Position numbers and translations under genes: made by a program
From: Thermotoga sp. SG1
GTDB lineage: Bacteria; Thermotogota; Thermotogae; Thermotogales; Thermotogaceae
Assembly: GCF_002865985.1 (NCBI RefSeq)
Contig: NZ_LNDD01000004.1
Span: forward strand, 248,001 to 312,000
DNA: 64,000 nt
Direction: 5' to 3'
Notes under the pieces: model-generated
Databases searched by the model: none
What the model saw: the letters and a program-made list of their open reading frames with translations, nothing else
Told to the model about the DNA's origin: nothing
Part shown: positions 28,041 through 42,928 of the stretch, piece after piece
How positions within the stretch are numbered: position 1 is the first letter of the stretch
How the letters are laid out: each line of letters begins with the position of its first letter

Positions 28041-29147
28041 TTAACTCGTCGCTACTCTCTCCAGATAATTTTCCAGCGCGTGCACTGCTGCTCCAAAAGC
28101 GATCACCGGTTCTTGAACAGTTGAAAAACTGATATCCACTTCGTGTTTGTAGAGAAGATGTTTTTCCACCTTCATCTTCAAGCTTTTCAGGAATTCTTTT
28201 CCAAACTCCTTGAAGAATCCTCCTATGACGATCTTTGAGATGCCAAAAAGGTGTATCAGGCTCAAAAGGCCTATACTGAAAAATTCGGCAATGTTGTCCA
28301 AATAGTCTTTCACACGACTATCTCCAGATCCTATCGCTTCTGCAAGCGACTCAAATCCCATAGATTGGATGTACTTCAGAACGGTGTCTTCTCCGCACAC
28401 ATCTTCCAGAAAAACGTATTTTTCTCCGTCGAAAACCCTGGTGTATCCGATCTCTCCTGCATAGCCATTCTCGCCCCGATAGAGTTCCCCGTTGATGATG
28501 ATCCCGGATCCTATTCCTTTTCCGGTCAGGATCCAGACGAAGGAATCGTCCCGCCTTGTGTACCACTTTTCTCCGACTGCCCCCATGTCGGCGTCGTTTT
28601 CCACCCAGACTTCAACACCGTATTTATCTTTCAGAAGATCGGCAAGGGGAACCTGAGACAGAGGAAAATTCCTTGGGTTTATGATGACACCCTTTTCGAC
28701 ATCGACCGGGCCCGGCGCTGCCACAGTTAAAGCCGAGAGTTTCCTGTCTAGTTTTTCCAGCATATCTTTTGCACGATCTATCCCTCTGTAGACGATCTTC
28801 AGGGTGTTTTCTCTGTCACGCTTTGAAGGAAGAGGGTACGTTTCGTACATGAGAATGCTCATGCTGGCGTTCATGAGACAGATTGCTATCTCATCTCTTG
28901 TCACCTCCAGGCCGAGCACATGAGCGCAATCCGGTGCTATTTTCAAAGAGATGGTGGGTCTTCCCACACCCCTGGGAGAGTCCTTTTCCTCAATAACAAT
29001 ACCTTTTTCCAGAAGAATCTTTACGATCTCTCCCACCGTGGTCTTCGTGAGACCGAGTTCTTCTGCAATCTCAACTCGAGATACGGGAGATTTCATTATT
29101 CTTTTCAGGATTTTCGATGTGTTGTCTTTTCTTATGGACCTCAGCAA
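28041..29147 (-). CDS. ROK-family transcriptional regulator (candidate mannan regulator)
   Basis: A 368-residue repressor: winged helix-turn-helix at residues 1-70 (KRIMKSPVSRVEIAEELGLTKTTVGEIVKILLEKGIVIEEKDSPRGVGRPTISL), then a ROK sugar-kinase-like domain (LTVAAPGPVDVEKGVIINPRNFP, VEVWVENDADMGAVGEKWY). The usual ROK zinc motif (His plus CxCGxxGC) is not recognisable; the region reads GEIGYTRVFDGEKYVFLEDVCGEDTV with one cysteine. TTG start at 29147 with AAGGAGG 9 bases upstream. Last gene of the mannanase-GH130 unit, so probably controls mannan use (ManR-like). The catalytic kinase function is not expected because the N-terminus is a DNA-binding domain. Confidence 0.9.
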   Translation of the reverse strand: MLRSIRKDNTSKILKRIMKSPVSRVEIAEELGLTKTTVGEIVKILLEKGIVIEEKDSPRGVGRPTISLKIAPDCAHVLGLEVTRDEIAICLMNASMSILMYETYPLPSKRDRENTLKIVYRGIDRAKDMLEKLDRKLSALTVAAPGPVDVEKGVIINPRNFPLSQVPLADLLKDKYGVEVWVENDADMGAVGEKWYTRRDDSFVWILTGKGIGSGIIINGELYRGENGYAGEIGYTRVFDGEKYVFLEDVCGEDTVLKYIQSMGFESLAEAIGSGDSRVKDYLDNIAEFFSIGLLSLIHLFGISKIVIGGFFKEFGKEFLKSLKMKVEKHLLYKHEVDISFSTVQEPVIAFGAAVHALENYLERVATS

Positions 29148-29160
29148 ACTGTCATCCTCC

Positions 29161-30147
29161 TTACATGGAGTTTCTTTTCACAAATTCTACGATCTCGTCT
29201 ATGTATCCAAACGCGATAGCAACGTGGGTATCTGCCGCACCGTAGTATATCGCAACCCTTCCTGTTTCAGAATCGCAGAGTGCGGCACAGGGGAAAACCA
29301 CGTTTGGAACGAATCCAGTCGTTTCGTAATCCTCCTCCGGTGTTAAAAGATAGTACTTTGACCTGTAAAGAACTTTACTTGGGTCGTCCAGATCGAGAAT
29401 AGCGGCTCCAAAACTGTAAACGTATCCGTTGCAGGTGAGAGTTACACCGTGGTAGATGAGGAGCCATCCTTCGCTTGTTTCTATTGGGTATGGACCTGCT
29501 CCTATCTTGAGATTTTCCCACCAGTTGTAATTGCTTGTTCCCATCACAAACCTGTGATTTCCCCAGTGAATCATATCCGGGCTTTCACTGAGGAAGATGT
29601 CTCCAAATGGAGTATGACCGTTGTCGCTCGGCCTGTTTAACATCACATACTTTCCGTTTATCTTTCTCGGAAAAAGCACTCCGTTCCTGTTGAATGGAAC
29701 GTAGGCATTTGGAAGACGTACAAAGGTTTTGAAATCCTTTGTCATTCCCACTCCAATCGTGGGACCGTGATCATCTGTGCAGAAGGTTATATAGTAGGTG
29801 TCCTCTATCTTCACCACCCTTGGGTCATAAGCATAACTAGGTTGGAAAGGGTTACCATTCAGATCCACCCACTGGATCTCTTCAGGTTCTATTTCCCAGT
29901 GAATTCCATCCTTGCTCCTTCCAAAGTGAAGAAAAGGTCTGGTGTTTTTGTGATCGATCCTGAAAACTCCCACGAATTCTCCGTTGTACGGCACAACGGC
30001 AGAATTGAACACCCTTGCACCCTTTGGAACGGGATTTCTTCCGATTATGGGGTTTTTACTGTACCTCCACAGAGGCCCTGTGTGATCCTCCGGCCTTTCC
30101 TCCCAGGGAATGTTTGGAATCTTTTCACTGAAAACCCTCAACATCAT
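29161..30147 (-). CDS. GH130 beta-mannoside phosphorylase
   Basis: A 328-residue cytoplasmic enzyme of family GH130, which splits beta-1,4-mannosidic bonds with phosphate to give mannose 1-phosphate. Family features: the N-terminal NPIIGRNPVPKGARVFNSAVVPYNGEFVGVFRID, the catalytic Asp in SYAYDPRVVKIEDTYY, the GWLLIYHGV strand and the C-terminal YYGAADTHVAIAF five-bladed-propeller repeats. No signal peptide. The MSB8 orthologue TM1225 has a solved structure and is reported, as I recall, as a mannooligosaccharide phosphorylase. ATG at 30147 or the next codon after GAGGAGG. It lies 9 bases after the mannanase gene. Confidence 0.92.
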   Translation of the reverse strand: MMLRVFSEKIPNIPWEERPEDHTGPLWRYSKNPIIGRNPVPKGARVFNSAVVPYNGEFVGVFRIDHKNTRPFLHFGRSKDGIHWEIEPEEIQWVDLNGNPFQPSYAYDPRVVKIEDTYYITFCTDDHGPTIGVGMTKDFKTFVRLPNAYVPFNRNGVLFPRKINGKYVMLNRPSDNGHTPFGDIFLSESPDMIHWGNHRFVMGTSNYNWWENLKIGAGPYPIETSEGWLLIYHGVTLTCNGYVYSFGAAILDLDDPSKVLYRSKYYLLTPEEDYETTGFVPNVVFPCAALCDSETGRVAIYYGAADTHVAIAFGYIDEIVEFVKRNSM

Positions 30148-30156
30148 TTAACCTCC

Positions 30157-32154
30157 TCAAGAAGATTTTTTGTAGAGCCTCACATTATCGATGAAAATCG
30201 GCCCATCGTACTCCAGGTGGTCTCCAACTACACCTATGTGAAGTTCGTTCACCCCAGGTGTCTTATCGAACTCGATCCTCACGTGGAACTTCCTGTACTT
30301 TTTGCCGTCGAAACTGACAAGTTCCCCGCTGTCAACTGAAGCGTTGTTCATGTCGAGTCCTATCTTCACCCAGCCGGGATTCAGCACCGCGTACGGTCTC
30401 AATCTCCCTGTGAGTTCTTTATCCGGTATGTAGATATCGTACTCGAGGATCTCACACTCAGAAAGTTGATCGAATTTTCTAACCACCCTCACCTCTTCCC
30501 AGTCACTCTTTCCAGGAAGTATTACATTCATCTGGAAAGCACCGTTTCCCACTTCACCGTTCCACTCGATATCTGGTGTTTTGAACTCTGCCTGCCATGT
30601 TCCGCTGTTCCACCAGTTCTTGACTTCCCCAGGACTGGAAAAATCTACTTCTTCTACGAGAACGTACCGTGCTCTGTTCATGACCTTCACTTTAATCGTG
30701 TCTTTCACCGTTTCTTTCCTGAAATGGGCCTCAAGGAACATCCCGTGCTCTCCGTCTGGAATCTGTGTCGTATCGAACTCGAATCCATAAACTCCGTATC
30801 CGAGATGTTTTATCTCATCTTCAAAGAGCAGATTTTCAACCCCAACGGAAATTCCTTCGAACGTGTTGCTGTAGTCGAAGACACCCACCCTCACCTTCAC
30901 AGTCTTTTTGATCTCCTGACCATCCTTTGGTGTGATGAACATGCAGGTATCTTCCCTTTTATCTTCACCTGTACTGAACAGTTTTGCGTACTCCCTGATC
31001 AACTTCGCTTCTTCACTTTCATCGTTCACTATTCTGAAACCGTCGTAATCGGGGTAGTAGCCCTCTTCGTCTCTGTCCCATCCTTCACCGATACCTGCTA
31101 GCATCCAGAACATGGCTCCACTTCCCCCAAGATCGTAAACCAGGTCGTTCCACAGTTTGTAAATGGCAACTCTGTTGACCGGAGCGCTTTTGGGAATACC
31201 GTACTCTTCCAGAACGACGGGTTTTCCAATCTCTTTTGCGATCTTTATGTGATCTTCTATCCACTTTGCTCCCCACTGTGCGTAGTTCTCAGGGCTCACA
31301 CCCCAGTGGGAGGGGTAGAGATGGAACGTTCCAAAATCCACCGTCTCTATCTCCAAAAGTCTCTTCCAGTCAACGCCGGACCATCCGTTGTAGGCCCACT
31401 CGGCTTCTTCACCGTAAGGTCTGAAACCTTCGTAGTTGTTGAAGAATCCCTCGTCTCCCACGGCAACCAGGTGGTTTGGATCCAGACTCTTTATGTAAGC
31501 ACTCATCTCCTTTACCCATTCGACGAGTGTGTTACCAGATTTGTCCGTTTCACACCTGGGTTCGTTCGCCAGTTCCCACGCCATGATGGTGGGCTCTTCC
31601 CTGTAAGGAACTCCCGTGTAGGTGTTCACCCGGTTTATGAGGAAGGACACGTATTTTTTGTATTCTTCTTTGATCTTCTCGTTTCTGTAGAAGTCATCGT
31701 GATGGGTGCCTCCAAACCATCTCACGTATTGATTCATTCCACCGAAATCGTCCCAGTTGTTCACAAGAACGATGATGAGTTTTATACCCAGTTCCTTTGC
31801 CTTCGCTATCGTGTAGTCGAGCCTTTCAAAACCGTCCTGAGCGTTCGTACCCTCTGGCAATCCAAATACTCCCGGTTCTGGGTGCATGTAGGTGTTCTTG
31901 TCACGGCAGTAACTCTCACCATCGAGGAATCCCCAGATCCTGAGAACTTTCACCCCCATGGCTTTTGCACTTTCAAGGACGCTGTCTATCATTCGATTGC
32001 TCTTGTAGTGCATGTAGTAGTTGTTGCTTCCGACGAATCTGAACTCTTCCCCGTTCAGGATGAATCTGCCGTTTTCCACTCTCACGAACTCATCGTTTGC
32101 AAAAAGGATGATGGATAGTACTGGAATCAAAAATGAGAACAAAAGTTTTCTCAT
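30157..32154 (-). CDS. man5: Secreted endo-beta-1,4-mannanase, GH5, with CBM27-like C-terminal module
   Basis: Hydrolyses beta-mannan outside the cell. The ATG at 32154 follows GGAGGGG; the in-frame ATG 15 bases upstream overlaps that site. Signal peptide MRKLLFSFLIPVLSIILFA, cleavage near A-NDEF. GH5 barrel about residues 20-390: acid/base Glu in MAWELANEPR (about E198), nucleophile in KPVVLEEYGIPK (about E317), substrate-site tryptophans in MFWMLAGIGEGWDRD. From about 400 comes an Ig-like segment, and the last ~170 residues (ARYVLVEEVDFSSPGEVKNWWNSGTWQAEF ... GPIFIDNVRLYKK) match the CBM27 mannan-binding module known from the T. maritima Man5. First gene of man5-GH130-ROK. Confidence 0.95.
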   Translation of the reverse strand: MRKLLFSFLIPVLSIILFANDEFVRVENGRFILNGEEFRFVGSNNYYMHYKSNRMIDSVLESAKAMGVKVLRIWGFLDGESYCRDKNTYMHPEPGVFGLPEGTNAQDGFERLDYTIAKAKELGIKLIIVLVNNWDDFGGMNQYVRWFGGTHHDDFYRNEKIKEEYKKYVSFLINRVNTYTGVPYREEPTIMAWELANEPRCETDKSGNTLVEWVKEMSAYIKSLDPNHLVAVGDEGFFNNYEGFRPYGEEAEWAYNGWSGVDWKRLLEIETVDFGTFHLYPSHWGVSPENYAQWGAKWIEDHIKIAKEIGKPVVLEEYGIPKSAPVNRVAIYKLWNDLVYDLGGSGAMFWMLAGIGEGWDRDEEGYYPDYDGFRIVNDESEEAKLIREYAKLFSTGEDKREDTCMFITPKDGQEIKKTVKVRVGVFDYSNTFEGISVGVENLLFEDEIKHLGYGVYGFEFDTTQIPDGEHGMFLEAHFRKETVKDTIKVKVMNRARYVLVEEVDFSSPGEVKNWWNSGTWQAEFKTPDIEWNGEVGNGAFQMNVILPGKSDWEEVRVVRKFDQLSECEILEYDIYIPDKELTGRLRPYAVLNPGWVKIGLDMNNASVDSGELVSFDGKKYRKFHVRIEFDKTPGVNELHIGVVGDHLEYDGPIFIDNVRLYKKSS

Positions 32155-32210
32155 ATGAATCCCCTCCATTAATTAGTAATCTAGACTTATTTATAGTTCC
32201 TTCAGAAGAA

Positions 32211-32240
32211 AATGTACCATCTTTCCTCCTGCGAAGTCAA
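32211..32240 (-). promoter_or_regulatory. Putative promoter of the mannanase operon
   Basis: TTGACT (32240-32235, minus strand) and TACATT (32216-32211) are 18 bases apart; the predicted start lies about 50 bases upstream of the mannanase ATG. The 157-base gap between 32154 and 32312 otherwise shows no strong terminator for the operon ending at 32312. Confidence 0.5.
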
Positions 32241-32311
32241 GTGTCATTTTTCATGATTTCTGGTTTTTACAGCCAACTATCCGGGATTATTCTGAATCAG
32301 ATGACGAAATC

Positions 32312-33112
32312 TCAAAATTTCTTCGGTTTGAACACATCCTCCAGGTTTTCAAAGTGCTTTTTTCTTTCCTGGTAAATCCTCTGGAAGGTCTCTTTGAAGA
32401 GAACGTCCACAACGGCGATTTCGCCGATGTTTTCCCTCAGAAACTCGTAGATATCGTACTTCACGGGAGGGCTCTGAAGAACAAGGTGAGCCACCCTTGC
32501 CAGTTCAGAATCTTTGTTCGTTGTGATGGCGATCGTTTTCGCACCCATGTCCTTTGCCACCTGGGTGGATTTCACCGTGTCCCTTATGTTCCCAGTGTGG
32601 CTGATCGAAATCACCAGATCTTCTTCTGTAAGATTCACCGCCTCTATCACCTGAACGTGAGGGTCGTTGGAAAAGAACGTGTGGAAACCAAGGAGCGAAA
32701 ACTTTAAACTCGCATACTCTGAGACCACTCCAGAAAGCCCCACTCCGAAAAAGAGCACCCGCCGGGCTGAGAGGATCCACTCCACCGCCTGCTCCACATC
32801 TTTCATGTTCAGTGTGTTTTTCAAACGTTTCAGTATCTCTATCTCCTCATCTATGAAATCATGTCTTTCTATCGCCTCTTCTATACCACTCAACTCTCTC
32901 GCCAGAGTGATCTTGAAGGCCTGATAGCCGTCGAAATCGAGTTTTTTGATCACCCTGTGAATCGTGGTTTCACTCACACCCACAATCTTTGCAAACTCCG
33001 TTATCGAGTAGTGTATGACATCATCCGGTTTTTCCAGGATGTAATCAGCCACCCTCCGCTCAGCGGGGCTGAACTGTGTGTATATGTTCAATATCCTATC
33101 CTTTACCTTCAA
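32312..33112 (-). CDS. RpiR/MurR-family transcriptional regulator with SIS domain
   Basis: A 266-residue regulator: N-terminal helix-turn-helix (residues 1-75, FSPAERRVADYILEKPDDVIHYSITEFAKIVGVSETTIHRVIKKLDFDGYQAFKITLAREL) and a C-terminal sugar-isomerase (SIS) domain that usually senses phosphorylated sugars (RVLFFGVGLSGVVSEYASLKFSLLGFHTFF, DLVISISHTGNIRDTVKSTQVAKDMGAKTIAITTN). Last gene of the eight-gene operon running from 42030; it overlaps the GT gene by 17 bases. TTG start is the only reasonable choice. Probably autoregulates the operon. Confidence 0.92.
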   Translation of the reverse strand: MKVKDRILNIYTQFSPAERRVADYILEKPDDVIHYSITEFAKIVGVSETTIHRVIKKLDFDGYQAFKITLARELSGIEEAIERHDFIDEEIEILKRLKNTLNMKDVEQAVEWILSARRVLFFGVGLSGVVSEYASLKFSLLGFHTFFSNDPHVQVIEAVNLTEEDLVISISHTGNIRDTVKSTQVAKDMGAKTIAITTNKDSELARVAHLVLQSPPVKYDIYEFLRENIGEIAVVDVLFKETFQRIYQERKKHFENLEDVFKPKKF

Positions 33113-34238
33113 CCTCCCACTCCTCTTTCAACAGGTGTTTCCTTTCCAGAAATACCTCAAGTTGCTCGTAAGCGTACCTTTCTGCTTCTTCGTCCGATAG
33201 AGATTTTACCTCTTCTGCGAACCTGGCGGTTCTTGCAAAGTAAAACGGTAGAAGGTTCTCCACCACCGTTTTATCCCTCGTCTTTCTGTATTGAACGGCG
33301 CTTCTGTAGAGAAGATCAACCCAGGAGGTAAGACTGAGTGTTCCGTCTTTTCTCACTTCTCCTACGGCACTCTCGTTCACGTATTCTGGAACGACCAGTG
33401 TTTCTTTTGCAAGTTTTTTAAGATTGTCCACATCTATGCTCATCGGTGGAATTTCTTCTTCCGGTGTTTCACCGTAAATAGGTACATCTTCAATGTTCCA
33501 CACACTCATCCATCTGTTCTGATAGATGACCATCAACTCAAAGAGTGTTCCCACTACCTGAAGGAACATTCCCTTGAGGTGTTTTCCAGGATCCTTGACA
33601 TCGTGGATCTTGGTACCAAGGGCTGCCTGAAGGATCCTTCCAGATTCGTTTATGGCGGTCGTGGTCATCCAGATATCGATACCGAATCTTGCAACGTCCG
33701 TTCTCCACGTCTCTTCCGGTTTTTCTAAGTAAATCTCAAGGAGTTTTTTTCCGACGCCGAAGTCTCCCCCGATGGGCTGTCTCACCTTCTTCCCGTAGAG
33801 GGCGGACGTCATGGGAAAACAGACGTTGTTTGTGATCGTGCCATCGAATCTGTGTCTCAGATAAAACGGTGCAACGTAGTCTGCTTCTCCTTTCAGTATG
33901 GGTCCTGCGAGTCTTTCTACCCACCATGGCTTCACACTTCTCAGGTCGGAGTCGAGAAACACCACCGCCTGTGCTCCCTGTTCAAGGGAGAACTCCATAA
34001 TGGCCTTCATGGCACTTCCTTTTCCCGGAATCCCCTCGTAGACGAAACTCTCCTTTGGGATGCCGAAGGTGTCCGTTTCCATGAATCTTTCTCTTGTTCT
34101 GTCGGACGATCCACCGTCTGAATTCACAATCATTCCGTCTCCATCGAAGAACTCCATTATACCCTTCGCCGCCACTTTTGCAACGTGGGAAATCGTCCCT
34201 GCGTTGTTGAAACTAGGTATTCCAACGACAACTTTCAT
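33096..34238 (-). CDS. GT-A glycosyltransferase resembling mannosylglycerate/glucosylglycerate synthases
   Basis: A 380-residue cytoplasmic glycosyltransferase of GT2 fold. N-terminus MKVVVGIPSFNNAGTISHVAKVAAKGI binds the nucleotide sugar; the metal-binding DxD is in AVVFLDSDLRSV; the later motif RQPIGGDFGVGKKLL ... DVARFGIDIWMTTTA is shared, from memory, with mannosylglycerate synthase (GT78) and glucosyl-3-phosphoglycerate synthase (GT81). This suggests transfer of glucose or mannose to glycerate, 3-phosphoglycerate or a similar acceptor, but the donor and acceptor cannot be read from sequence. Overlaps the GT4 gene by 4 bases. Good GGGAGG upstream of ATG 34238. Confidence 0.75.
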   Translation of the reverse strand: MKVVVGIPSFNNAGTISHVAKVAAKGIMEFFDGDGMIVNSDGGSSDRTRERFMETDTFGIPKESFVYEGIPGKGSAMKAIMEFSLEQGAQAVVFLDSDLRSVKPWWVERLAGPILKGEADYVAPFYLRHRFDGTITNNVCFPMTSALYGKKVRQPIGGDFGVGKKLLEIYLEKPEETWRTDVARFGIDIWMTTTAINESGRILQAALGTKIHDVKDPGKHLKGMFLQVVGTLFELMVIYQNRWMSVWNIEDVPIYGETPEEEIPPMSIDVDNLKKLAKETLVVPEYVNESAVGEVRKDGTLSLTSWVDLLYRSAVQYRKTRDKTVVENLLPFYFARTARFAEEVKSLSDEEAERYAYEQLEVFLERKHLLKEEWEVEGKG

Positions 34239-35512
34239 ACCAATACCTCCCTGCTCAGTATCTCTTCCAGTCTTTCCAGACTGAAGTGTTTCTTTCCAAC
34301 TTCGAAGTTGTGTTCCACCGTTTCTCTGTAGAGAGAAGGATCACACAAAAGCCCTGAAAGTTCCTCCACCGCTTTCTGCAGAGCGCTCTCTTCAACCTTC
34401 ACGAGGTTTTCTCTTCTGAAGTAACGGTCTCCCAGATTGATGTACTTCAACCCTACCGGTTTTATGTCGGACTTGAACACCTCGTATTCGAAAAGAACAA
34501 CCGGTTTTTTCGCCGCTATCGCTTCAAGGAGTTGATTTCCCCACCCCTCAAGGATGGTGGGATACGTGACAAAATCGGCAACATTGTAGAGTTTCCAGAA
34601 AAAGGAGGTGTCTTCTTTCACCCTCTCGCTGAAGATCAAAAGCGGAACATCTTTCAGGAGAGCGTACTCTTTCAACTCTTCAAGGTAAGATACGTCTTCA
34701 CAGAGACCGGAAAACACGAGGACAATCTCGCCACTGAACACACTGCCGTTGTAGAGAGGAGTTTTTCTCTTAAGGGTTTTTTTCAGGAAAGCCACAACGT
34801 CTATTGAAAGTTCGATCGCTTTTCTTCTGTCGATCCTTGTTGCCTGAAGGGCAACGATCGTTCCTGGATCTATACCGAGTTCTTCTCTCATCCTGTGATA
34901 CATATCTTCGGAGGTGATCGGCCTTTCAAAATCCATAACGTTCGGTACCACAACTGGATCTATGCCCTTTCTTTTCTGAAGTTCCTTCTTTGCGATCGAG
35001 TTTATGACCACATGCTTCACATCTGGAAGATCCGGTGGGAAGTGTCTTTCCAGTATCTCTCTCAACCTTTCGCTTCTTGGAATCAGGTGCTTTCGCTCCC
35101 ACCAGAAATCGTGGTGGTGCGCGATGAATTTCTTTTTCAGTTTCGAAAGGGCAAGGCCAAGTGGTGGAAAGAGCCCCAGGGACCAGATGTTGTTTGGAAC
35201 GACAAGGTCGTAGTCTTTCAAAATTGCCCCCAGGATACGAAGGAGTTCTTCCTCTTTCTTCTTCATAAAACTCAGAAAATCCTCTTCATCAGAAAAATCC
35301 GTCACACCTTTGAAGAAATTTCTGTTTATCTTCTCGAAGTCTGGATTTTCAAACCCGATTTCCTCCACAACCACATCGACTCCTTCTTTTCTGTTTCCTG
35401 CCACGATGTGAACCTCATGCCCCATTCTCGTCAGGACCTTCTTCCACTTTTCCATCTCGAGTGAAACACCGTCCATGAGACCTCCACGGTAGTGAAGGAG
35501 CGCTATCTTCAC
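34235..35512 (-). CDS. GT4-family glycosyltransferase
   Basis: A 425-residue GT-B glycosyltransferase. N-terminal domain: MKIALLHYRGGLMDGVSLEMEKW, VVPNNIWSLGLFPPLGLALSKL, HHHDFWWERKHLIPRSERL. C-terminal nucleotide-sugar domain: VVVPNVMDFERPITSEDM, PTILEGWGNQLLEAIAAKKPVVLFEYEVFKSDI, in which the E-x7-E retaining motif is recognisable as EGWGNQLLE. Likely a mannosyl- or glucosyltransferase acting after or before the adjacent GT-A enzyme, as in the Petrotoga mannosylglucosylglycerate pathway. GTG start overlaps the GH38 stop (GTGA). Confidence 0.82.
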   Translation of the reverse strand: MKIALLHYRGGLMDGVSLEMEKWKKVLTRMGHEVHIVAGNRKEGVDVVVEEIGFENPDFEKINRNFFKGVTDFSDEEDFLSFMKKKEEELLRILGAILKDYDLVVPNNIWSLGLFPPLGLALSKLKKKFIAHHHDFWWERKHLIPRSERLREILERHFPPDLPDVKHVVINSIAKKELQKRKGIDPVVVPNVMDFERPITSEDMYHRMREELGIDPGTIVALQATRIDRRKAIELSIDVVAFLKKTLKRKTPLYNGSVFSGEIVLVFSGLCEDVSYLEELKEYALLKDVPLLIFSERVKEDTSFFWKLYNVADFVTYPTILEGWGNQLLEAIAAKKPVVLFEYEVFKSDIKPVGLKYINLGDRYFRRENLVKVEESALQKAVEELSGLLCDPSLYRETVEHNFEVGKKHFSLERLEEILSREVLV

Positions 35513-38004
35513 GCTTTCTCCTCACTTTCAAAGAGTTCCACCAGATAATCGTAGGTTCTTCTCTTCATTCGAAGTTCGTTCAACTCCCTTGCCAGTTTCT
35601 CCTCGCCCTGAAGGTGAAAGAGTGAAAGTTCCATTTCTTTCTTCGTTCTGAGAAGAGAAAAGTACCTGTGTTTTGACTTGACGTCATCTCTTCCAGAAAG
35701 TCTGGAGGTCTCTGCGTCGAGTTCAGAAACGGTCTTTTTCAAAAGGTCCACCGCTTCGTCTTCTGGTGAACTCTCAAGATGCAGAACGGGAAACTCTGGA
35801 AAGTTCAAAATAGACAGTTCAGAAGGTCGCATCGCACCAGAGAGCGGTTCGATCCGTCTTGTTCCTATCTGAAGAGGTTTTAAATCTTCCACTTCTTCCA
35901 GATAGGGGTTGAAGACCCAAAGGGAAGTCCCATTAACACCAACCCACGGGAGTTTTGATTTGAAAAGGACACGCTCGTTTTCTTCACCATCGGATTCGAT
36001 CTCTAGAAACAGTGGAGGACAGTCAAAGAGGGTGTACCACCTGAAAAATTCCTCGCTTCTTGGATGGCTCTCAAGTTCCATAAAGGAAAGCCTCATCGAA
36101 AAATTCCCTTCACACTTTGCTCCAGGAACGTACATCATGGGACCTGCGTCCCCCACTCTACCCTCTACATCCTTTGCTATCCACTCGATCGATCTCACAA
36201 GTGTTACGTGCACCCTTTTGTTCTCCATCCAGTACTCTCTCAGACCTTTTGCAAGGAAGGTTTTCGACATTTTTCCATCGTATATGGAGACAAAACCCTG
36301 GAATGGAAATTCCCTCACCACACCCGTTTCTCTTGCTGCAAGGAAAGTTCCTTTCAAACTCTCAGGGAGGGATTCTGGTAGTAGATAATCGTCTTTTTCC
36401 TCTCTTTTCACCACGTCGAAGGGCATCTTTGCAAAGATCTCTCCTGTTCCTGTCTCGTAACTCATCGAAAGTTTGTAGTTTTTTCCCTTCGTGTTCAGAA
36501 CCAGATTCCACTTCACAAGTGGTGTTTCATCGAAGACGATTCTTTCTTTCGTTTCAACACGGCACAGATGTGACTGAACGATTCTTTCCATCTCAACAAC
36601 CATGGAATGTTCTGTTCGGGAGACGATGTCGAGTTTTTTCAGAGTCACGGAGAAATCCGTTTCTTCAACGAAGGTGGAGTAGGTATCACCCTTTTCCTCG
36701 AACAGATTCAAAACACCTGATCTTTTCCCGTTCAAGAGAAGAGAGCCGTCTTTTTCAAAGTGGGCCTCGTAGTAGTTGTTTTTCCATGACAGGTCCTTGT
36801 TTGTTTCTTTTTTCTGACTGGCGGTTTCGACCCTGAAAAATCCCGCACCGTCTGTTCTTAGCCGAACTGTCCTCTCACCGTCGCAGTACCAGTGGTCATA
36901 AGGAAATGAAGAAAGAGAAAAAACATAAAGACCTCTTTTCAGTCTTGCTTTCTCCACAAGTTCTTTCAACTTTTCTTCCACGGATCTTTTTAGAAGAAAG
37001 TACATCCTCCTGTATGTTCTCTCCATCTTTTCATGGACAGGATCAACACACACTCCACAGATGTTGTCGTGTGCGAGGGTCTTCAGGTACTCTCTCCACA
37101 GGATTTCCTGAGGCTTTTCACCGTTCAGAGCAGAAAGAATATCTTCCAGTTTCAGAAGATCTTCGATGAGGTCGCTTTCCAGTTTCAGATACACCCTGGT
37201 GGAAAGCGTTCCGGGAAAGGTGCAGGCGTATCTCCCAGAAAGGAGTTCTTCAGAAAGAACGGGAACGTCCCCGGGAAATCTTTCAGGGAAATCTTCCGGT
37301 GAAACGATCTGGATATTCAGATACTCCTGAGGGTCCTCTGGAGAAAGGTCTATATCGTATCCATCGAGAAGCAGCACTTCATCGGATCTTGAGAACCTTT
37401 TCAGTTTTTTCTTTTCGTGCTTCAGTCTTTTCTCTGCCATCTCTTTTGTCTCTTTCAGGTTGTACAGGTTTCTGTAGCCTCCCACAAGAAATACGGCCTG
37501 AACCGTTGTACCATCGCTTCCTTTCCAGAGGAACTCCTGGGAGATCTCGTCGTTCTCGAAAGAAACACCCCGCCAGAGAAAGACTTTCTCTATCCCGAAC
37601 AATTTGTGTACCTGTGGGCCCTGAGATATGTGACCGAAGTTGTCAAGAAGCCATCCCACCTTCATGCATTTTCCGAGTTTCTCCGCATCGTACTTTCCCA
37701 CCTCCAGATTCTTCAGTATGGACGGTTCCTTTGGTATCCTCCAGTCTATCTGCGTGTAATAGGGTCCTACCAGAAGTTTTCCTTCTTTAACCAGTTTTTT
37801 GAGGTCTTTCTCCACCTGTGGGTTTTCCGTGAGAAGATCTTCGATCACGGCCGTCTGGCCGTCCATCACGTAGACAAAGTCTGGATTTTTTTCAGAAAGG
37901 TCCTTCACCCTGGAAAAAACTTCTCCCAGCCAGCGAGAAGTCACTTCTGAAGTGGTAAACCACTCTCTGTCCCAGTGATTGTGGACGATCACCTTCTCCT
38001 TCAT
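35509..38004 (-). CDS. GH38 alpha-mannosidase, MngB-like
   Basis: An 831-residue cytoplasmic glycosidase; no signal peptide. GH38 metal site HNHWDREWF at residues 8-16, LDNFGHISQGPQVHKLFGI carrying the catalytic nucleophile Asp (about D119), and GPYYTQIDWRIPKEPSILKNL. The layout VMDGQTAVIEDLL and the motif order resemble mannosylglycerate hydrolase MngB more than lysosomal-type mannosidases. It probably releases mannose (or glucose) from an imported alpha-mannoside. Overlaps the ATPase gene by 4 bases and the GT4 gene by 4 bases, so it is co-expressed with both importer and transferases. Confidence 0.88.
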   Translation of the reverse strand: MKEKVIVHNHWDREWFTTSEVTSRWLGEVFSRVKDLSEKNPDFVYVMDGQTAVIEDLLTENPQVEKDLKKLVKEGKLLVGPYYTQIDWRIPKEPSILKNLEVGKYDAEKLGKCMKVGWLLDNFGHISQGPQVHKLFGIEKVFLWRGVSFENDEISQEFLWKGSDGTTVQAVFLVGGYRNLYNLKETKEMAEKRLKHEKKKLKRFSRSDEVLLLDGYDIDLSPEDPQEYLNIQIVSPEDFPERFPGDVPVLSEELLSGRYACTFPGTLSTRVYLKLESDLIEDLLKLEDILSALNGEKPQEILWREYLKTLAHDNICGVCVDPVHEKMERTYRRMYFLLKRSVEEKLKELVEKARLKRGLYVFSLSSFPYDHWYCDGERTVRLRTDGAGFFRVETASQKKETNKDLSWKNNYYEAHFEKDGSLLLNGKRSGVLNLFEEKGDTYSTFVEETDFSVTLKKLDIVSRTEHSMVVEMERIVQSHLCRVETKERIVFDETPLVKWNLVLNTKGKNYKLSMSYETGTGEIFAKMPFDVVKREEKDDYLLPESLPESLKGTFLAARETGVVREFPFQGFVSIYDGKMSKTFLAKGLREYWMENKRVHVTLVRSIEWIAKDVEGRVGDAGPMMYVPGAKCEGNFSMRLSFMELESHPRSEEFFRWYTLFDCPPLFLEIESDGEENERVLFKSKLPWVGVNGTSLWVFNPYLEEVEDLKPLQIGTRRIEPLSGAMRPSELSILNFPEFPVLHLESSPEDEAVDLLKKTVSELDAETSRLSGRDDVKSKHRYFSLLRTKKEMELSLFHLQGEEKLARELNELRMKRRTYDYLVELFESEEKA

Positions 38005-39068
38005 GAAAGCCTCTCTCCCGTTTCTGGATGGAAAAGGTGTATCTTCTCAAGATCTATGAAGAATTCGATCTTTTCTCCACTTTTGAAATCAACGTCTCCC
38101 GGAATCTTTGCAACGATTTTTTCACTTCCAACGTTCAGATGGAGAATCGTGTCCGACATGAGTTTTTCAGCAAAATACACTTCTCCTTCCAGTTTGACGG
38201 TACTTGGTTTTTCTTTCAAATAAACGTTCTCGGGACGTACACCAAGGACAACTCTCGAAATCTTTGGATCAGTTTTCAAAGGGATCGATATGGCATTTCT
38301 CTCAAGAAAGATGCTGGTTCCCTGAGATTTCACTTCCATCTCCAGAAAGTTCATCTGTGGTGATCCTACAAATCCTGCAACGAAGATGTTCACAGGATGA
38401 TGGTATATCTCAGAAGGTGTTCCTACTTGCTGGAGCTTTCCTTGATTCATCACGGCGATTCTGTCTCCCATCGTCATCGCTTCCGTCTGGTCGTGTGTCA
38501 CGTAGATGGTGGTGACACCTATTCTTTCTTGGAGTTTCTTTAACTCGCTTCTCATTTTCACACGAAGGAGGGCATCGAGGTTTGAAAGGGGCTCATCCAT
38601 CAGGAGTACTTCAGGTTCATGAACGATCGCGCGGGCAACGGCAACCCTCTGTCTCTGACCACCCGAAAGCTGGGCAGGGTACCTGTCGAGAAGTTCCGAT
38701 ATGTGAAGAAGATCCGCTGCCCAGTTCACCCTCTTTTCGATCTCTTCCTTTGGAACCTTCTTGAGTTTGAGGGGATATCCTATGTTGTCTCTCACCTTCA
38801 TGTGAGGCCAGACTGCGTAGCTCTGGAAAACCATGGAGATGTTCCTGTCTTTCGGTGCAAGGTTCGTCACCTCACGGTCGTTGAAGAAGATTCTTCCCTC
38901 TGTTACCTGCTCAAGTCCTGCTATACACCTCAAGAGGGTGGTTTTTCCACATCCCGAAGGTCCCAGCAAAACGAGGAACTCTCCTTCGTTCACTGTGAGG
39001 TCGATACCATCGAGTGCCTTCACGTTCCCGAAATATTTTTTCACTCCTTCTATTCTCACCTGAGCCAA
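38001..39068 (-). CDS. Sugar ABC transporter ATPase, MalK/UgpC-type
   Basis: A 355-residue ATPase: Walker A LLGPSGCGKTTLLRC, Q-loop FQSYAVWPHM, signature LSGGQRQR, Walker B VLLMDEPLSNLD, H-loop YVTHDQTEAMTMGD, and a C-terminal MalK-like TOBE domain (VVLGVRPENVYLKEK). It energises the two permeases encoded next. TTG start at 39068; a GTG 9 bases further in is an alternative. It might also serve the ATPase-less galactan transporter, though that is speculation. Confidence 0.92.
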   Translation of the reverse strand: MAQVRIEGVKKYFGNVKALDGIDLTVNEGEFLVLLGPSGCGKTTLLRCIAGLEQVTEGRIFFNDREVTNLAPKDRNISMVFQSYAVWPHMKVRDNIGYPLKLKKVPKEEIEKRVNWAADLLHISELLDRYPAQLSGGQRQRVAVARAIVHEPEVLLMDEPLSNLDALLRVKMRSELKKLQERIGVTTIYVTHDQTEAMTMGDRIAVMNQGKLQQVGTPSEIYHHPVNIFVAGFVGSPQMNFLEMEVKSQGTSIFLERNAISIPLKTDPKISRVVLGVRPENVYLKEKPSTVKLEGEVYFAEKLMSDTILHLNVGSEKIVAKIPGDVDFKSGEKIEFFIDLEKIHLFHPETGERLS

Positions 39069-39081
39069 TTCCTATCACCTC

Positions 39082-39879
39082 TCACTTTAAGGTGATACCC
39101 CACATGCTCACGAGGTACTTTCTGATGAAGAATATGAACACCATCGCAGGAATCGCCATGATCGTTCCCGCAGCGAACTTGAAGTAGTCGGGTGATGCCA
39201 TGGCGGTGTTGAGGATGTGTGCGGGAAGCGTTCTGTTCGTCAGTGTCAGAATCGAAGAGGCAAAGACTTCGTTCCAGGACATGATAAAAGCAAATATGGC
39301 AGAAGCAGCGAGTCCGGGAAGTGCAAGAGGAAGTGTGATTCTCAAAAAAGCCTGGAACCTGCTCAATCCGAAGACCATCCCCGCCTCTTCGTATTCAACA
39401 GAGATCCCGGAGAACACACTGGAGGTGATGAGAACAACAAAGGGCAGTATCATCGAAGCGTGTGCCAGTGCCACACCGAGTGTGGTGTCTGCAAGATTCA
39501 GCCTCATGTAAAGAACCACAAGAGGAACTGCGACTACGATGAGGGGAATCGATCTTGTCATGAGCATGGAGAGTCTGATGGCGTTCTTTCCCGGAAAGAC
39601 ATATCTTGTGATGGCGTATCCGGCGGGAAGCCCTAAAAGAAACGAGATTCCTATCGAAACGAGGGCCACCTGAATACTGGTCAGCGTTGCCTTACCACCT
39701 CCCAGTGTGACGAAGAGTTTGTAGAGATGATCAAGGGTGAGACTGCTCGGAAGTATTTTGTTTGGATCGTAGTAGTCCGATGAAGGTGTGAGCGATGCAA
39801 GGACGATGAAAAATACCGGAGTTAAAAACCACAGAGATACGATCACAGATAGAAAGACGATGAAAAATCTTCTCATCAT
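39082..39879 (-). CDS. Sugar ABC permease, MalG-type
   Basis: A 265-residue inner-membrane permease of normal MalG size. N-terminal helix FFIVFLSVIVSLWFLTPVFFIVLASL, EAA loop SVEYEEAGMVFGLSRFQAFLRITLPLALPG, C-terminus KYLVSMWGITLK. It lacks the giant insertion seen in the malG at 5082-7556. ATGA overlap with the MalF-type partner. Confidence 0.92.
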   Translation of the reverse strand: MMRRFFIVFLSVIVSLWFLTPVFFIVLASLTPSSDYYDPNKILPSSLTLDHLYKLFVTLGGGKATLTSIQVALVSIGISFLLGLPAGYAITRYVFPGKNAIRLSMLMTRSIPLIVVAVPLVVLYMRLNLADTTLGVALAHASMILPFVVLITSSVFSGISVEYEEAGMVFGLSRFQAFLRITLPLALPGLAASAIFAFIMSWNEVFASSILTLTNRTLPAHILNTAMASPDYFKFAAGTIMAIPAMVFIFFIRKYLVSMWGITLK

Positions 39880-40721
39880 CGCGCCCCCTCCAGGTGTTTT
39901 GCCCTGAGGAACGTTATGTAGAACCAGCTGACGATGATCGTAACGAGGGCGATCACCAGTGCATAAGCGCTGGCCATCTTCGGGTCGTTCATGAAGGTGT
40001 ACCAGTAGTAGGTTTCACCGGCCAGAACCGGGATGTCCCTTCCTGCAAGAAGCCAAACGACACCGAATATCTGAAACGCAAACAGAGTTCTCAAGAGGAG
40101 TGCCGACATGATAGATGGTTTCAAAAGAGGAAGGATGATCTTTGTGAACTTCTTCCATCTGGAAAAGCCGAACAGATCGGCAGCTTCCAGGTATTCCCTG
40201 TTTATCGACTGAAGACCGGCAAGGATGATGATGAAGACAAGCGGTGTTGCTCTCCAGATTTCTGTGAGGGCTATCACCCAGAATTCTCTGGCCTTGAACA
40301 TGTATCCAAAGAAGTAGAGAGGCCTTTCTATCAGGTTCAAACTCATGAGTACCTTGTTCAAATATCCGTTGGGTGAAAATATTGTGTAACTCATGAGAGC
40401 CGCTGTAACGTCACTCAGGGCGAGTGGAATCGCTATGAAGTACAGGATCATCGTGTAACCTCTGAATTTCCAGTTCACAAAGAAAGCAAGTCCAAGGGCG
40501 AGAATGAGCTGGGCTGGCACGATCACCGCTGTGAGAAGGAGTGTGTTCTTCATGGCGTTCCAGAACTCTCCACTCTCCATGAGACGTCTGAAGTTTCCGA
40601 AAAACCCCTCGTTGCTTGTGAAAGCGAGTCTGAACGTTTCAAAGAGAGGATATCCCATTAAAACAGCAAGATAAAGAACAGCAGGGAGTATCAGAAGGAA
40701 GGGAATCCATTTTCTTCTCAT
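39876..40721 (-). CDS. Sugar ABC permease, MalF-type
   Basis: A 281-residue permease. I start at the ATG at 40721 (GGGGGTGTGTT upstream, MRRKWIPFLLILPAVLYLAVLMGYPLFETF); the longer frame upstream runs back through the binding-protein terminus and hairpin. EAA loop SINREYLEAADLFGFSRWKKFTKIILPLLKPS. Pairs with the MalG-type protein. Confidence 0.92.
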   Translation of the reverse strand: MRRKWIPFLLILPAVLYLAVLMGYPLFETFRLAFTSNEGFFGNFRRLMESGEFWNAMKNTLLLTAVIVPAQLILALGLAFFVNWKFRGYTMILYFIAIPLALSDVTAALMSYTIFSPNGYLNKVLMSLNLIERPLYFFGYMFKAREFWVIALTEIWRATPLVFIIILAGLQSINREYLEAADLFGFSRWKKFTKIILPLLKPSIMSALLLRTLFAFQIFGVVWLLAGRDIPVLAGETYYWYTFMNDPKMASAYALVIALVTIIVSWFYITFLRAKHLEGAR

Positions 40722-40738
40722 AACACACCCCCAGAAAA

Positions 40739-40758
40739 GGGGTGGGAAACCCCACCCC
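40739..40758. other. Intercistronic hairpin between binding-protein and permease genes
   Basis: GGGGTGGG and CCCACCCC form an 8-base perfect stem around AAAC, 6 bases after the binding-protein stop. No T-run follows in the transcribed direction; same layout as the three other binding-protein/permease junctions of the window. Confidence 0.75.
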
Positions 40759-40764
40759 AGGTTC

Positions 40765-42030
40765 TCAGAAGAGACTTGCGTCCGGTTCCGGAAGTTCCGC
40801 TCCAGTTTCTTTAAACATCCACCTGATTCGCTCACCGAGTTCTTTCACTACCTTCGCTGGATCTTCACCCTGAAAGACAATTCTCGTGAACGCCATTCTG
40901 TAGGTTTCGGTGAACTCTCCGCTCTTTGGCCCAAGACTCGGTATGAAGGATACAACTGAATCTTTCGTGGCAGACTGGTTTATCACACCTTCCGCCAGGA
41001 CCTTGAGAGCGCCTTCCGGCACAGCACCGACCGCTTCCTGAACGACGGGGAAGAATCCCACGTTTTTGAGGATTTCAACCTGCATCTCCGAAGAGGTGAG
41101 GTAGTCTATCACCTTCGCCGGTTCTTCAAAATCTGCTCCCTTTGGAATTGCGAGTCCCACAAGAACGATGATGTATCCTCTTCCCATCGGTCCCCTAGGA
41201 ACGGGAACGGCAACAAAAGCATCTGGTTTTTCAACGATGGCAGGTTTCAGCCTTGCCGTGTGGTCCCAGGCGATCCACACTTCTTCCCTCAAGAGGGGAT
41301 CCGCCATGCCATCCCAGGTGGAACTTGCGGGATGAACGTATTTGAAGAGTTCTTTCAGGTAGTTCCACATTTCAACGGCTCTCACACTGTCGAATTTCAG
41401 AGCCTGGGCTCCCGTGAAGGAAGGATAAATGTAACCATGGAGGAATCTGTGCCAGAGACCCTTCGGTCCGATTGGGAAGCCAAGAAGAGGCTGACCCGTT
41501 TTCTCGTAGATGTTCTTTGCCCACTCAAGCAGAGCTTCATAGGTCCATTTTTCTGTTCCTTTGATCACATCATCTCTGGACAGTCCGCGAGGCAGATAGT
41601 CAAACGCCTTCTTGTTGACGGCCATAACGTACGTTGCCTGAAGCCAGGGGACGAAGATCTTTTCGCCGTTGACGTAAGCGAATTTTTCGAGTGTTTCAAT
41701 GAAGGTCTTTCCTTCGAATTTGAGGTCCTTGAGATCACTCAAAAGTCCTTCAGATGCCATTATGTAGAGATTTCCCTGAAGATCCGCTACAAGGTTCAAC
41801 GTGGTCCTTCCTGCCCTGATTTCTGCCTGGAGCCTGCTGAAAAGTTGTGGGTATTCGAAGTTGAGAAATTCCACGTCGATGCCCGACGACTTCGAAAATT
41901 CCGCCAGTTTGTTCAGCATGAACTCCCTCTCTGCCGCCGGTGTCATCTGTGTGGAAGCAAAATTCACCTTACCAAAAACGACACCGACAACTGCCAGAAT
42001 CACCATGAAAAGCAACCACTTTCTCACCAT
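40765..42030 (-). CDS. Sugar ABC transporter substrate-binding protein (family 1)
   Basis: A 421-residue periplasmic binding protein, first gene of the eight-gene GH38 operon. ATG at 42030 after AAGGGGGTG. Signal peptide MVRKWLLFMVILAVVGVVFG. Family 1 features: REFMLNKLAEFSKSSGIDVEFLNFEYPQLFSRLQAEIRAGRTTLNLVADL and VPRGPMGRGYIIVLVGLAIPKGADF. The linked GH38 and GT78/81-like genes suggest a mannosylated small solute as ligand; the sequence alone does not show it. Confidence 0.9.
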   Translation of the reverse strand: MVRKWLLFMVILAVVGVVFGKVNFASTQMTPAAEREFMLNKLAEFSKSSGIDVEFLNFEYPQLFSRLQAEIRAGRTTLNLVADLQGNLYIMASEGLLSDLKDLKFEGKTFIETLEKFAYVNGEKIFVPWLQATYVMAVNKKAFDYLPRGLSRDDVIKGTEKWTYEALLEWAKNIYEKTGQPLLGFPIGPKGLWHRFLHGYIYPSFTGAQALKFDSVRAVEMWNYLKELFKYVHPASSTWDGMADPLLREEVWIAWDHTARLKPAIVEKPDAFVAVPVPRGPMGRGYIIVLVGLAIPKGADFEEPAKVIDYLTSSEMQVEILKNVGFFPVVQEAVGAVPEGALKVLAEGVINQSATKDSVVSFIPSLGPKSGEFTETYRMAFTRIVFQGEDPAKVVKELGERIRWMFKETGAELPEPDASLF

Positions 42031-42072
42031 GAACACCCCCTTGAAAAAGTTTTTCGTATATCATAACTACAA

Positions 42073-42084
42073 AGAAAATTTTCT
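42073..42084. promoter_or_regulatory. Palindromic operator candidate for the RpiR-type regulator
   Basis: AGAAAATTTTCT is a perfect 12-base palindrome just downstream of the -10 of the GH38 operon. RpiR-family repressors commonly bind such AT-rich GAAA-TTTC palindromes. Confidence 0.45.
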
Positions 42085-42092
42085 ACATATGG

Positions 42093-42122
42093 ATGATAAC
42101 AAAAAATTACCCCCTCTGTCAA
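42093..42122 (-). promoter_or_regulatory. Putative promoter of the GH38 operon
   Basis: Minus-strand TTGACA (42122-42117) and TATCAT (42098-42093) with 18-base spacing; the start of transcription would fall in or beside the AGAAAATTTTCT palindrome. Confidence 0.6.
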
Positions 42123-42155
42123 GTGGTGGTAACATATAATGAGTTTATTGTTTGC

Positions 42156-42928
42156 CTAGAAGTACATCATTTCATTGAATAAATCCTCTATATTTACCAA
42201 CAACTCTGGTTTCTTTGCACTAAGGAATTCAATCAATCTTGCTCCACCTTCATAAAACGTCACTCTGCAGAAAGGCTTTTGAATTCCGATATGGTTTTCG
42301 ACGAGACCCTGTCTTTTTCTGATTTGATTTTCGATATAGCGAGCAAATCCTTCCTTCCACTCCTGCCATACCATATACTCAAAGTCCTTTGCTTCTAAGA
42401 TATTCCTCAGTTGTGCACGATATCGATGAACATCTGTTAAGTCGCCATATTCTAAAGTCTTTAAGAATCGAGAGTAGACATTGCTGAAAACCCCATCTTC
42501 ATAGGGAAAAGGATAGGTTAATTCCCACATGTAATCACCTTTTCTCATCGCTTCTTGAGCTAATTTCAGTCTTTGTTTGAGTTTTAACTCGCAAATTTTC
42601 CACTGTTGACAGTGGATAAACCCATGAAAAATGACAGTATAGTCTTCGAGAGAATCAAAGACATCTGGTGTAACTACACAGGCAACTCTATTATCGTAAA
42701 AATCAAGAGGGAAAGCTGCTCTTAAACTTTCCGGAATTTTTATCTTCGCAGGAAATCTCTGAACAAGGAAAAAACTTTTCTCTTTAGGATCGAATTCGAA
42801 AACAAAAAACCTCCATCTGTGGCAATCGCTACTGGAAAGATTTTCTCAAGAAATGGATGAACGTCCTTTATACTTTCCCAAACCTTGATGATTTTTTGCA
42901 GATCCTTCTGGTAATCCACTGATTTCAT
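42156..42928 (-). pseudogene. Frameshifted gene of unknown function (two adjoining frames)
   Basis: Reading the minus strand from ATG 42928 gives MKSVDYQKDLQKIIKVWESIKDVHPFLEKIFPVAIATDGG in one frame; after a T6 run (42804-42809 on the plus strand as A6) the -1 frame stays open without a stop for over 200 codons to 42156 (FFVFEFDPKEKSFFLVQRFPAKIKIPESLR ... LFNEMMYF). One extra T would restore a continuous 257-residue protein. The junction reads T-TTT-TTG in the initial frame, a canonical -1 slippery heptamer, so programmed slippage is conceivable; a disrupted gene or sequencing error is simpler. The protein looks soluble with no motif I recognise. Base composition is AT-richer than the neighbours. 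Confidence 0.7.

Follow-up and report, generated by a model that had tools for sequence, protein, structure and literature searches.

Gene content of the operon

We analysed a stretch of 64,000 nucleotides from Thermotoga sp. SG1 (RefSeq assembly GCF_002865985.1, contig NZ_LNDD01000004.1, positions 248,001 to 312,000 of the forward strand), hereafter the window, and within it a minus-strand operon of eight co-directed, intact genes at positions 32312-42030. In order of transcription these encode a binding protein, two permeases, a MalK-type ATPase, a glycoside hydrolase of family GH38, a glycosyltransferase of family GT4, a second glycosyltransferase of GT-A type and an RpiR/SIS regulator. The gene classes are backed by Pfam and NCBIfam profile matches. 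We propose that the operon handles protective sugars of the glucosylglycerate (GG) type, namely GG and its mannoside, the rare solute mannosylglucosylglycerate (MGG). The genes are:

40765-42030, minus strand: periplasmic solute-binding protein, UgtE counterpart by synteny (SBP_bac_8, 82 bits; SBP_bac_1, 77.5 bits)
39876-40721, minus strand: MalF-like permease (PF00528, 52.4 bits, scanned as 39876-40730; start ATG at 40721)
39082-39879, minus strand: MalG-like permease (PF00528, 66.7 bits)
38001-39068, minus strand: MalK/UgpC-type importer ATPase (ABC_tran, 128 bits; OB_MalK; NF008653, 452 bits against a cut-off of 432)
35509-38004, minus strand: GH38 glycoside hydrolase, proposed MGG hydrolase (PF01074, 108.9 bits)
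34235-35512, minus strand: GT4, MGG synthase (MggS) (NCBIfam NF041101, 668.7 bits)
33096-34238, minus strand: GT-A, proposed single-step GG synthase (Ggs) (fold match to mannosylglycerate synthase, invariant residues)
32312-33112, minus strand: RpiR/SIS regulator, counterpart of UgtR (TM1228) (HTH_6, 75 bits; SIS, 64 bits)

A preliminary description of this DNA had spoken of eight overlapping genes. Eight genes of the classes that it named are present, but overlaps occur at only five of the seven junctions (4 nt at four, 17 nt at one); at the other two, the genes are separated by 13 nt and about 43 nt. The binding-protein gene starts either at the ATG at 42030 or at the GTG at 42027, the mechanical open reading frame (ORF) beginning at 42036, and by eye its product has an N-terminus resembling a signal sequence. 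A sequence search returned no relative of the binding protein in the PDB.

All eight genes were found in identical order in five further genomes of the genus (L047, L048, L049, L050 and L052; G, C and L numbers are our handles for genomes, contigs and loci). In a sixth, G096, the comparison covered the other six genes: those for RpiR, GT-A, GT4 and GH38, with the start of the ATPase gene, occupy one end of a contig (L051), and the binding protein is encoded on a separate contig. Because the same order recurs across the genus, we regard the operon as beyond chance. The gene set is present in other families too.

GT4 is a member of the MggS family

We found that GT4 passes the curated equivalog cut-off of NF041101, the profile for mannosylglucosylglycerate synthase (E 3e-201; cut-off 640 bits). 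GT4 is thus an MggS family member by that cut-off, and it is predicted to form MGG from GDP-mannose and GG. The T. maritima MggS homologue was reportedly expressed by Fernandes et al. in 2010 and made MGG from these two substrates; MGG in Thermotoga is said to be known from this in vitro enzyme. That study reportedly covers synthesis and not the importer, hydrolase or regulator. The GT4 profile had no PDB relative at E 0.001, and a plasmid search returned a GT4 homologue (38%) in three Vibrio records. Two GT4 copies in one genome (G041; C9 and C16) carry in-frame stops, possibly from gene decay, sequencing error or over-run of the match.

GT-A has the fold of mannosylglycerate synthase

The AlphaFold model of GT-A (predicted local distance difference test score, pLDDT, 94.5) matched the mannosylglycerate synthase (MGS, family GT78) of Rhodothermus marinus with a Z of 35.4, aligning 347 of 380 residues over model positions 3-372 at a root-mean-square deviation of 2.8. 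The match takes in the C-terminal helical part, and Foldseek likewise gave MGS as the top match. Other folds scored lower, with GpgS at Z 21.9 over about 224 residues, MpgS at 20.4 and, among the matches listed, ArnC and other GT2-type enzymes at 18.9 or less. The preliminary description had named kinship with unrelated GT2 enzymes as one outcome that would speak against its proposal; we rejected that assignment, the fold being far closer to MGS. GpgS was also rejected, since GT-A reached 53.5 bits on the GpgS profile NF010496 (GT81), below the equivalog cut-off of 262.

Residues named for R. marinus MGS in PMC2581804 include K76, D102 and the first Asp of the DxD, D192 and H217. In GT-A, K73, D96-S-D98, D188 and H212 stand at the places of these residues, with equivalence taken from motif order, and are invariant in 22 of 22 aligned sequences. 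GT-A therefore shares with MGS the fold and the positions of the catalytic Lys, DxD, Asp and His; it is only 17% identical to MGS, and its sugar donor is probably a different one. A QP-[LI]-G-G-[DE] stretch is common to GT-A and the glucose-using GpgS. A fragment search did not turn up MGS itself. MGS is described as joining mannose and free D-glycerate in one step (PMC1224877).

The GT-A family member of G049 is 51% identical to the window protein, and homologues in Persephonella metagenome-assembled genomes (MAGs), beside a glycerate-kinase-type gene, are 42-43% identical. Ggs has reportedly been described from Petrotoga mobilis and Persephonella marina; we take G049 to be P. mobilis SJ95, and its GT-A may be the assayed Ggs. 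A profile search of the Thermotoga sp. SG1 genome gave no GpgS over the cut-off, which leaves GT-A as the sole candidate source of GG identified there. We propose that GT-A is a glucosylglycerate synthase; glucosyl transfer to D-glycerate is predicted, and genomic context supports glycerate. Some GT-A matches in other genomes (for example G019-G022, G072 and G074) hold one internal stop, which could come from gene decay, sequencing error or over-run.

GT4 and GT-A pairs are common in glycan loci, and the pair might instead build an envelope or storage glycan, with the importer and GH38 serving to recycle it. No flippase, polymerase or lipid-carrier gene is among the eight, and GT4 belongs to a curated small-molecule family; we consider a glycan role very improbable.

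GH38 is a candidate MGG hydrolase

The PF01074 score of GH38 is well over the cut-off of 25 bits. H10, D12, D121, H312 and D313, presumably the catalytic residues, are invariant in 13 of 13 aligned sequences, the window protein included. The best PDB matches of the GH38 model (pLDDT 86.7) were the bacterial GH38 enzymes 2wyi (S. pyogenes, Z 31.8) and 5kbp (E. faecalis, Z 31.2), in a comparison that barely covers residues after about 720. The enzyme probably acts in the cytoplasm, because no signal peptide is evident by eye. We propose that it is a mannosylglucosylglycerate hydrolase, a specificity that we infer. The enzyme resembles the bacterial GH38 group, but the "MngB-like" label of the preliminary description suits its N-terminal part only; the profile score of the protein is given below. 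With E. coli MngB the enzyme shares the GH38 N-terminal domain; the substrate of MngB is phosphorylated by a phosphotransferase system, whereas the operon here has an ABC importer. A second GH38 lies elsewhere in the genome (G000:C2:129507-130283, L001; longer frame of 1013 aa) and is probably the TM1851-type alpha-mannosidase.

The N-terminal match to the MngB model, together with MGS as the best fold match of GT-A, would also suit a mannosylglycerate system. In that case GT-A would be a genuine mannosylglycerate synthase, GH38 would hydrolyse mannosylglycerate, and GT4 would add a further sugar. We think this unlikely: the name of the GT4 family refers to the transfer of mannose to glucosylglycerate, GT-A has the stretch in common with glucose-using GpgS, and relatives pair the same RpiR regulator with a GGaP-like enzyme, as described below.

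The glycosyltransferases and regulator form a core across the phylum

We compared 103 genomes of the phylum. These genomes are related, so that the counts are not independent, and many misses reflect separate contigs of draft genomes. Co-location counts used GT4 matches from 78 of 80 genomes (weak G008 and G070, weak second matches and some fragments were dropped), the best RpiR place per genome in 75 of 85 genomes (at least 148 bits), 32 of 51 for the window-type binding protein (at least 489 bits) and 41 of at least 96 for GH38 (the close subfamily plus fragments at these loci).

GT-A was present in 65 of the 103 genomes, and NF041101 matched in 80, in 22 of them over the cut-off. In 56 of its 65 genomes GT-A was no more than 2 kb from the best RpiR match, and in 31 it was no more than 3 kb from GT4. 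For the window-type binding protein, the distance to GT4 was at most 15 kb in 23 of 32 cases and, among the GH38 matches listed, the distance to GH38 was at most 6 kb in at least 25 of 32. The best RpiR match fell within 2.5 kb of GT-A, GT4, the GGaP-like gene or the binding protein in 70 of 75 genomes.

The core of GT-A, GT4 and RpiR was found with three different importers, including that of the window. A c19-type importer, which has no ATPase of its own, accompanies RpiR and either GT-A or GGaP (L063-L065, L068, L154, L162 and L166-L168), and a c1/c2-type importer accompanies GT4 (L033-L038, L040-L045, L062, L066, L067 and L069). From these three contexts we conclude that the two glycosyltransferases and the regulator are constant while the importer and the degrading enzyme vary. 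Outside the phylum, a Chloroflexi MAG (L091) has GT4 and GT-A together with an importer of the window type, whose binding protein is 42% identical.

At L033-L038, L040-L045, L066, L067 and L069 the MggS-family GT4 follows the importer ATPase. The second permease of the same importers is about 435 aa long, with what appears by eye to be a large insert past the first membrane helix.

A GGaP-like phosphorylase replaces GT-A in some genomes

A GGaP-like enzyme (E 1e-80 or better) was found in 11 of the 103 genomes (G005, G038-G046 and G053; loci L063-L065, L167 and L168), and in ten of these a same-family RpiR gene lies within 2 kb of it. The GGaP-like gene and GT-A never occur in one genome of the phylum set (0 of 11 with GT-A); ten of the 11 belong to family f10, which also has GT-A members. 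The GGaP-like protein of L064 shows 46% identity with E. coli YcjM, whose annotation reads glucosylglycerate phosphorylase (GGaP). A (T/S)ETN motif and a loop-A Glu are given as the GGaP signature in PMC7178133; in agreement with this, TETN is present in four of four GGaP-like relatives and in YcjM, along with an invariant PYE that was taken to hold the loop-A Glu.

Genes of glycerate kinase type stand close by. At L168 such a gene adjoins GGaP, and at L065 one lies 1.2 kb past it (DUF4147 and MOFRL over cut-off; NF041176, 287 bits against a cut-off of 550). Beyond the phylum we examined the best 80 of at least 578 GT-A relatives, and the 64 loci outside Thermotogota (L090 counted among them; 58 with at least 1300 nt available upstream) are the nearest ones rather than a fair sample. 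In 13 of the 64 a glycerate-kinase-type gene of MOFRL type lies less than 600 nt from GT-A on the same strand (L103, L109, L120, L123, L132-L134, L136, L137, L145 and L150-L152), the taxa being Gallionella, Persephonella, WOR-3, Deltaproteobacteria and others. Since GT-A adjoins this gene in diverse taxa, the gene order suggests widespread glucosylglycerate synthesis. The genome of the window has one glycerate-kinase-type gene, away from the operon.

A recurrent palindromic site accompanies the regulator

Upstream of the first gene and after it we noted the following features:

42093-42122, minus strand: promoter-like TTGACA-18-TATCAT, with TG ahead of the second hexamer (11 of 12 letters, best of nine matches)
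42074-42083, unstranded: palindromic site 1, GAAAATTTTC, proposed RpiR operator (motif comparison across units)
42043-42055, unstranded: palindromic site 2, GAAAAAGTTTTTC, proposed RpiR operator (motif comparison across units)
40739-40758, minus strand: hairpin with T-rich tail between the binding-protein and permease genes, possible partial terminator (8 pairs, 7 of them G-C)

Consensus promoter matches in 31900-42400 numbered nine where shuffles average 8.1; because shuffles give about as many, the promoter call rests on its position and on by-eye conservation in other genera. The hairpin is one of 20 matches, with 12.0 expected from shuffles. A hairpin after the binding-protein gene is a common means of obtaining more binding protein than membrane parts.

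Both palindromes sit downstream of the promoter and upstream of the first gene. We searched for GAAARYTTTC or GAAAN5TTTC within 150 nt upstream of 29 hand-picked units, about one per genus and type, with expectations computed by first-order resampling of these upstream sequences. The motif had been derived from ugt-type units, so that the c19-type count alone is held out. Among the RpiR-linked units, sampled at roughly one per genus, 12 of 16 had the site (about 0.3 expected); so did five of seven held-out c19-type units (about 0.15 expected), compared with one of three lone GT4 genes (L065) and one of ten units that lack RpiR or have a c1 importer. Six of seven c1/c2-type importer units were without the RpiR site; a TGTAAnCGCTTACA-like sequence is visible by eye at L037 and L041. 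Because the site recurs at RpiR-linked units of these types, a shared regulator probably acts on the Ggs, GGaP and importer units of different genera. A wider regulon in this genome was tried and rejected: the 12-base AGAAARYTTTCT occurs at six places compared with 18 for the reversed control, giving no sign of more targets.

Relation to the UgtR regulon

The operon shares its RpiR regulator and importer with the UgtR regulon of T. maritima. We take G091 to be T. maritima MSB8; its counterpart of the operon (L049) was identified by position, with 88% identity and the same order. UgtR/TM1228 with UgtEFGK is described as one of three hypothetical sugar utilization pathways in T. maritima, with its sugar unassigned, and UgtR is listed for 9 of 11 Thermotogales genomes (PMC3750489). 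In its available parts that source draws no link to MGG or to glycosyltransferases.

In the literature searched, which lacks most subscription journals, we found no publication tying MGG to the UgtR regulon or its locus tags, and papers listed under TM1229, TM1230, TM1231, TM1233, TM1234 and TM1235 concern other subjects by title. MGG has been reported in Petrotoga and Rhodopirellula (PMC3694870). The MggS enzyme is already known; what is new here is an importer, a hydrolase and an RpiR regulon tied to GG and MGG, together with the exchange of synthase and phosphorylase.

A proposed system for GG and MGG import, synthesis and turnover

We consider the operon to be a GG/MGG import, synthesis and turnover system under one RpiR repressor, with a probability of roughly 0.75, and GG/MGG to be the most likely substrate. 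The binding protein, two permeases and MalK-type ATPase would import GG or MGG. Inside the cell, GT-A would make GG in one step from D-glycerate and a nucleotide sugar, MggS would convert GG and GDP-mannose to MGG, and GH38 would return MGG to GG and mannose. RpiR would repress at the palindromes just past the promoter until relieved by an effector, for which a phosphorylated sugar or a metabolite of glycerate is the probable candidate. With a synthase and a hydrolase on one transcript, the direction would have to depend on substrates (GDP-mannose, GG, ionic strength) or on regulation of the enzymes. The preliminary description had envisaged that a mannosyl/glucosyl-glycerate-like solute is taken up, turned over and made again; this is largely borne out by the MggS score of GT4 and the MGS fold of GT-A, and the solute can now be named more closely as glucosylglycerate and its mannoside.

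Several observations weigh against this reading. GT-A scored 24.5 bits on Pfam PF21969 (MGS_GT), just under the gathering score of 27; among its relatives L060 reaches 42 and L068 has no match listed. GH38 scored 224 bits on the MngB profile NF007331, over residues 4-335 only, with an equivalog cut-off of 1138. GT4 lies elsewhere or on another contig in 31 of the 65 GT-A genomes and is absent in three. The best NCBIfam match of the GGaP-like proteins is sucrose phosphorylase (236 and 213 bits, cut-off 334), and the best PDB match is also named sucrose phosphorylase. The Thermotoga sp. SG1 genome gave no GGaP-like match at E 1e-80 and, on search, no MGH1-type hydrolase. Four of the 16 RpiR-linked units lack the site, and it is also missing from L034, a unit of c1 type whose last gene encodes an RpiR protein. 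T. maritima is reported to accumulate di-myo-inositol phosphate (PMC1224877), and the literature searched, with most subscription journals outside it, yielded no record of MGG from Thermotoga. Co-transcription of a synthase and a hydrolase could lead to a futile cycle.

A variant of the scheme is that GG released by other organisms is imported, locked in as MGG by MggS and later unlocked by GH38, imported GG being the usual MggS acceptor. This alternative fits genomes without a recognised GG synthase. In four genomes of genus g12 (G078-G081) MggS lies inside an importer operon, and searches there gave no GT-A, no GGaP-like match and no over-cut-off GpgS (partial matches of 56.6 and 69.4 bits in two). 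Neither GT-A nor an over-cut-off GpgS was found in the 11 genomes with the GGaP-like phosphorylase, so that this reversible enzyme may be their GG source. We regard import followed by mannosylation as possible though doubtful for the operon. If true, it would mean an osmolyte gained by salvage or reverse phosphorolysis instead of by a nucleotide-sugar synthase.

If import, synthesis and turnover of GG and MGG is correct, a model hyperthermophile would have a substrate assigned to one of its orphan sugar regulons, and candidates would be named for an MGG importer and an MGG hydrolase. The regulon would also be one where a single regulator is paired with either a synthesis gene (Ggs) or, in its stead, a phosphorylase gene (GGaP). 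What MGG does physiologically in Thermotoga would then be open to direct testing.

Neighbouring genes

Directly downstream of the operon, at 28041-32169, is a mannan cluster consisting of a GH5 with CBM27, a GH130 mannooligosaccharide phosphorylase and a ROK regulator. This position, and the placing of the corresponding T. maritima genes among regulons for hypothetical sugar utilization (PMC3750489), would agree with an operon that extends the mannan cluster by importing and degrading alpha-mannosides or mannan fragments, with GH38 a general alpha-mannosidase and the glycosyltransferases passengers or makers of a storage glycan. In PMC3750489, however, mannose and mannosides are assigned to ManR, with UgtR a separate regulon; GT-A, GT4 and RpiR recur with other importers; and the GGaP-like and glycerate-kinase-type genes of relatives point to glycerate. 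A mannan role for the operon is in our judgement improbable. The GH5 gene is preceded by a promoter-like match of 9 of 12 letters.

Directly upstream, at 42156-42548, is an ORF of 130 aa with no Pfam family. This ORF may be a local insertion, since the other genomes of the genus that we examined have different sequence in the 260 nt preceding the operon.

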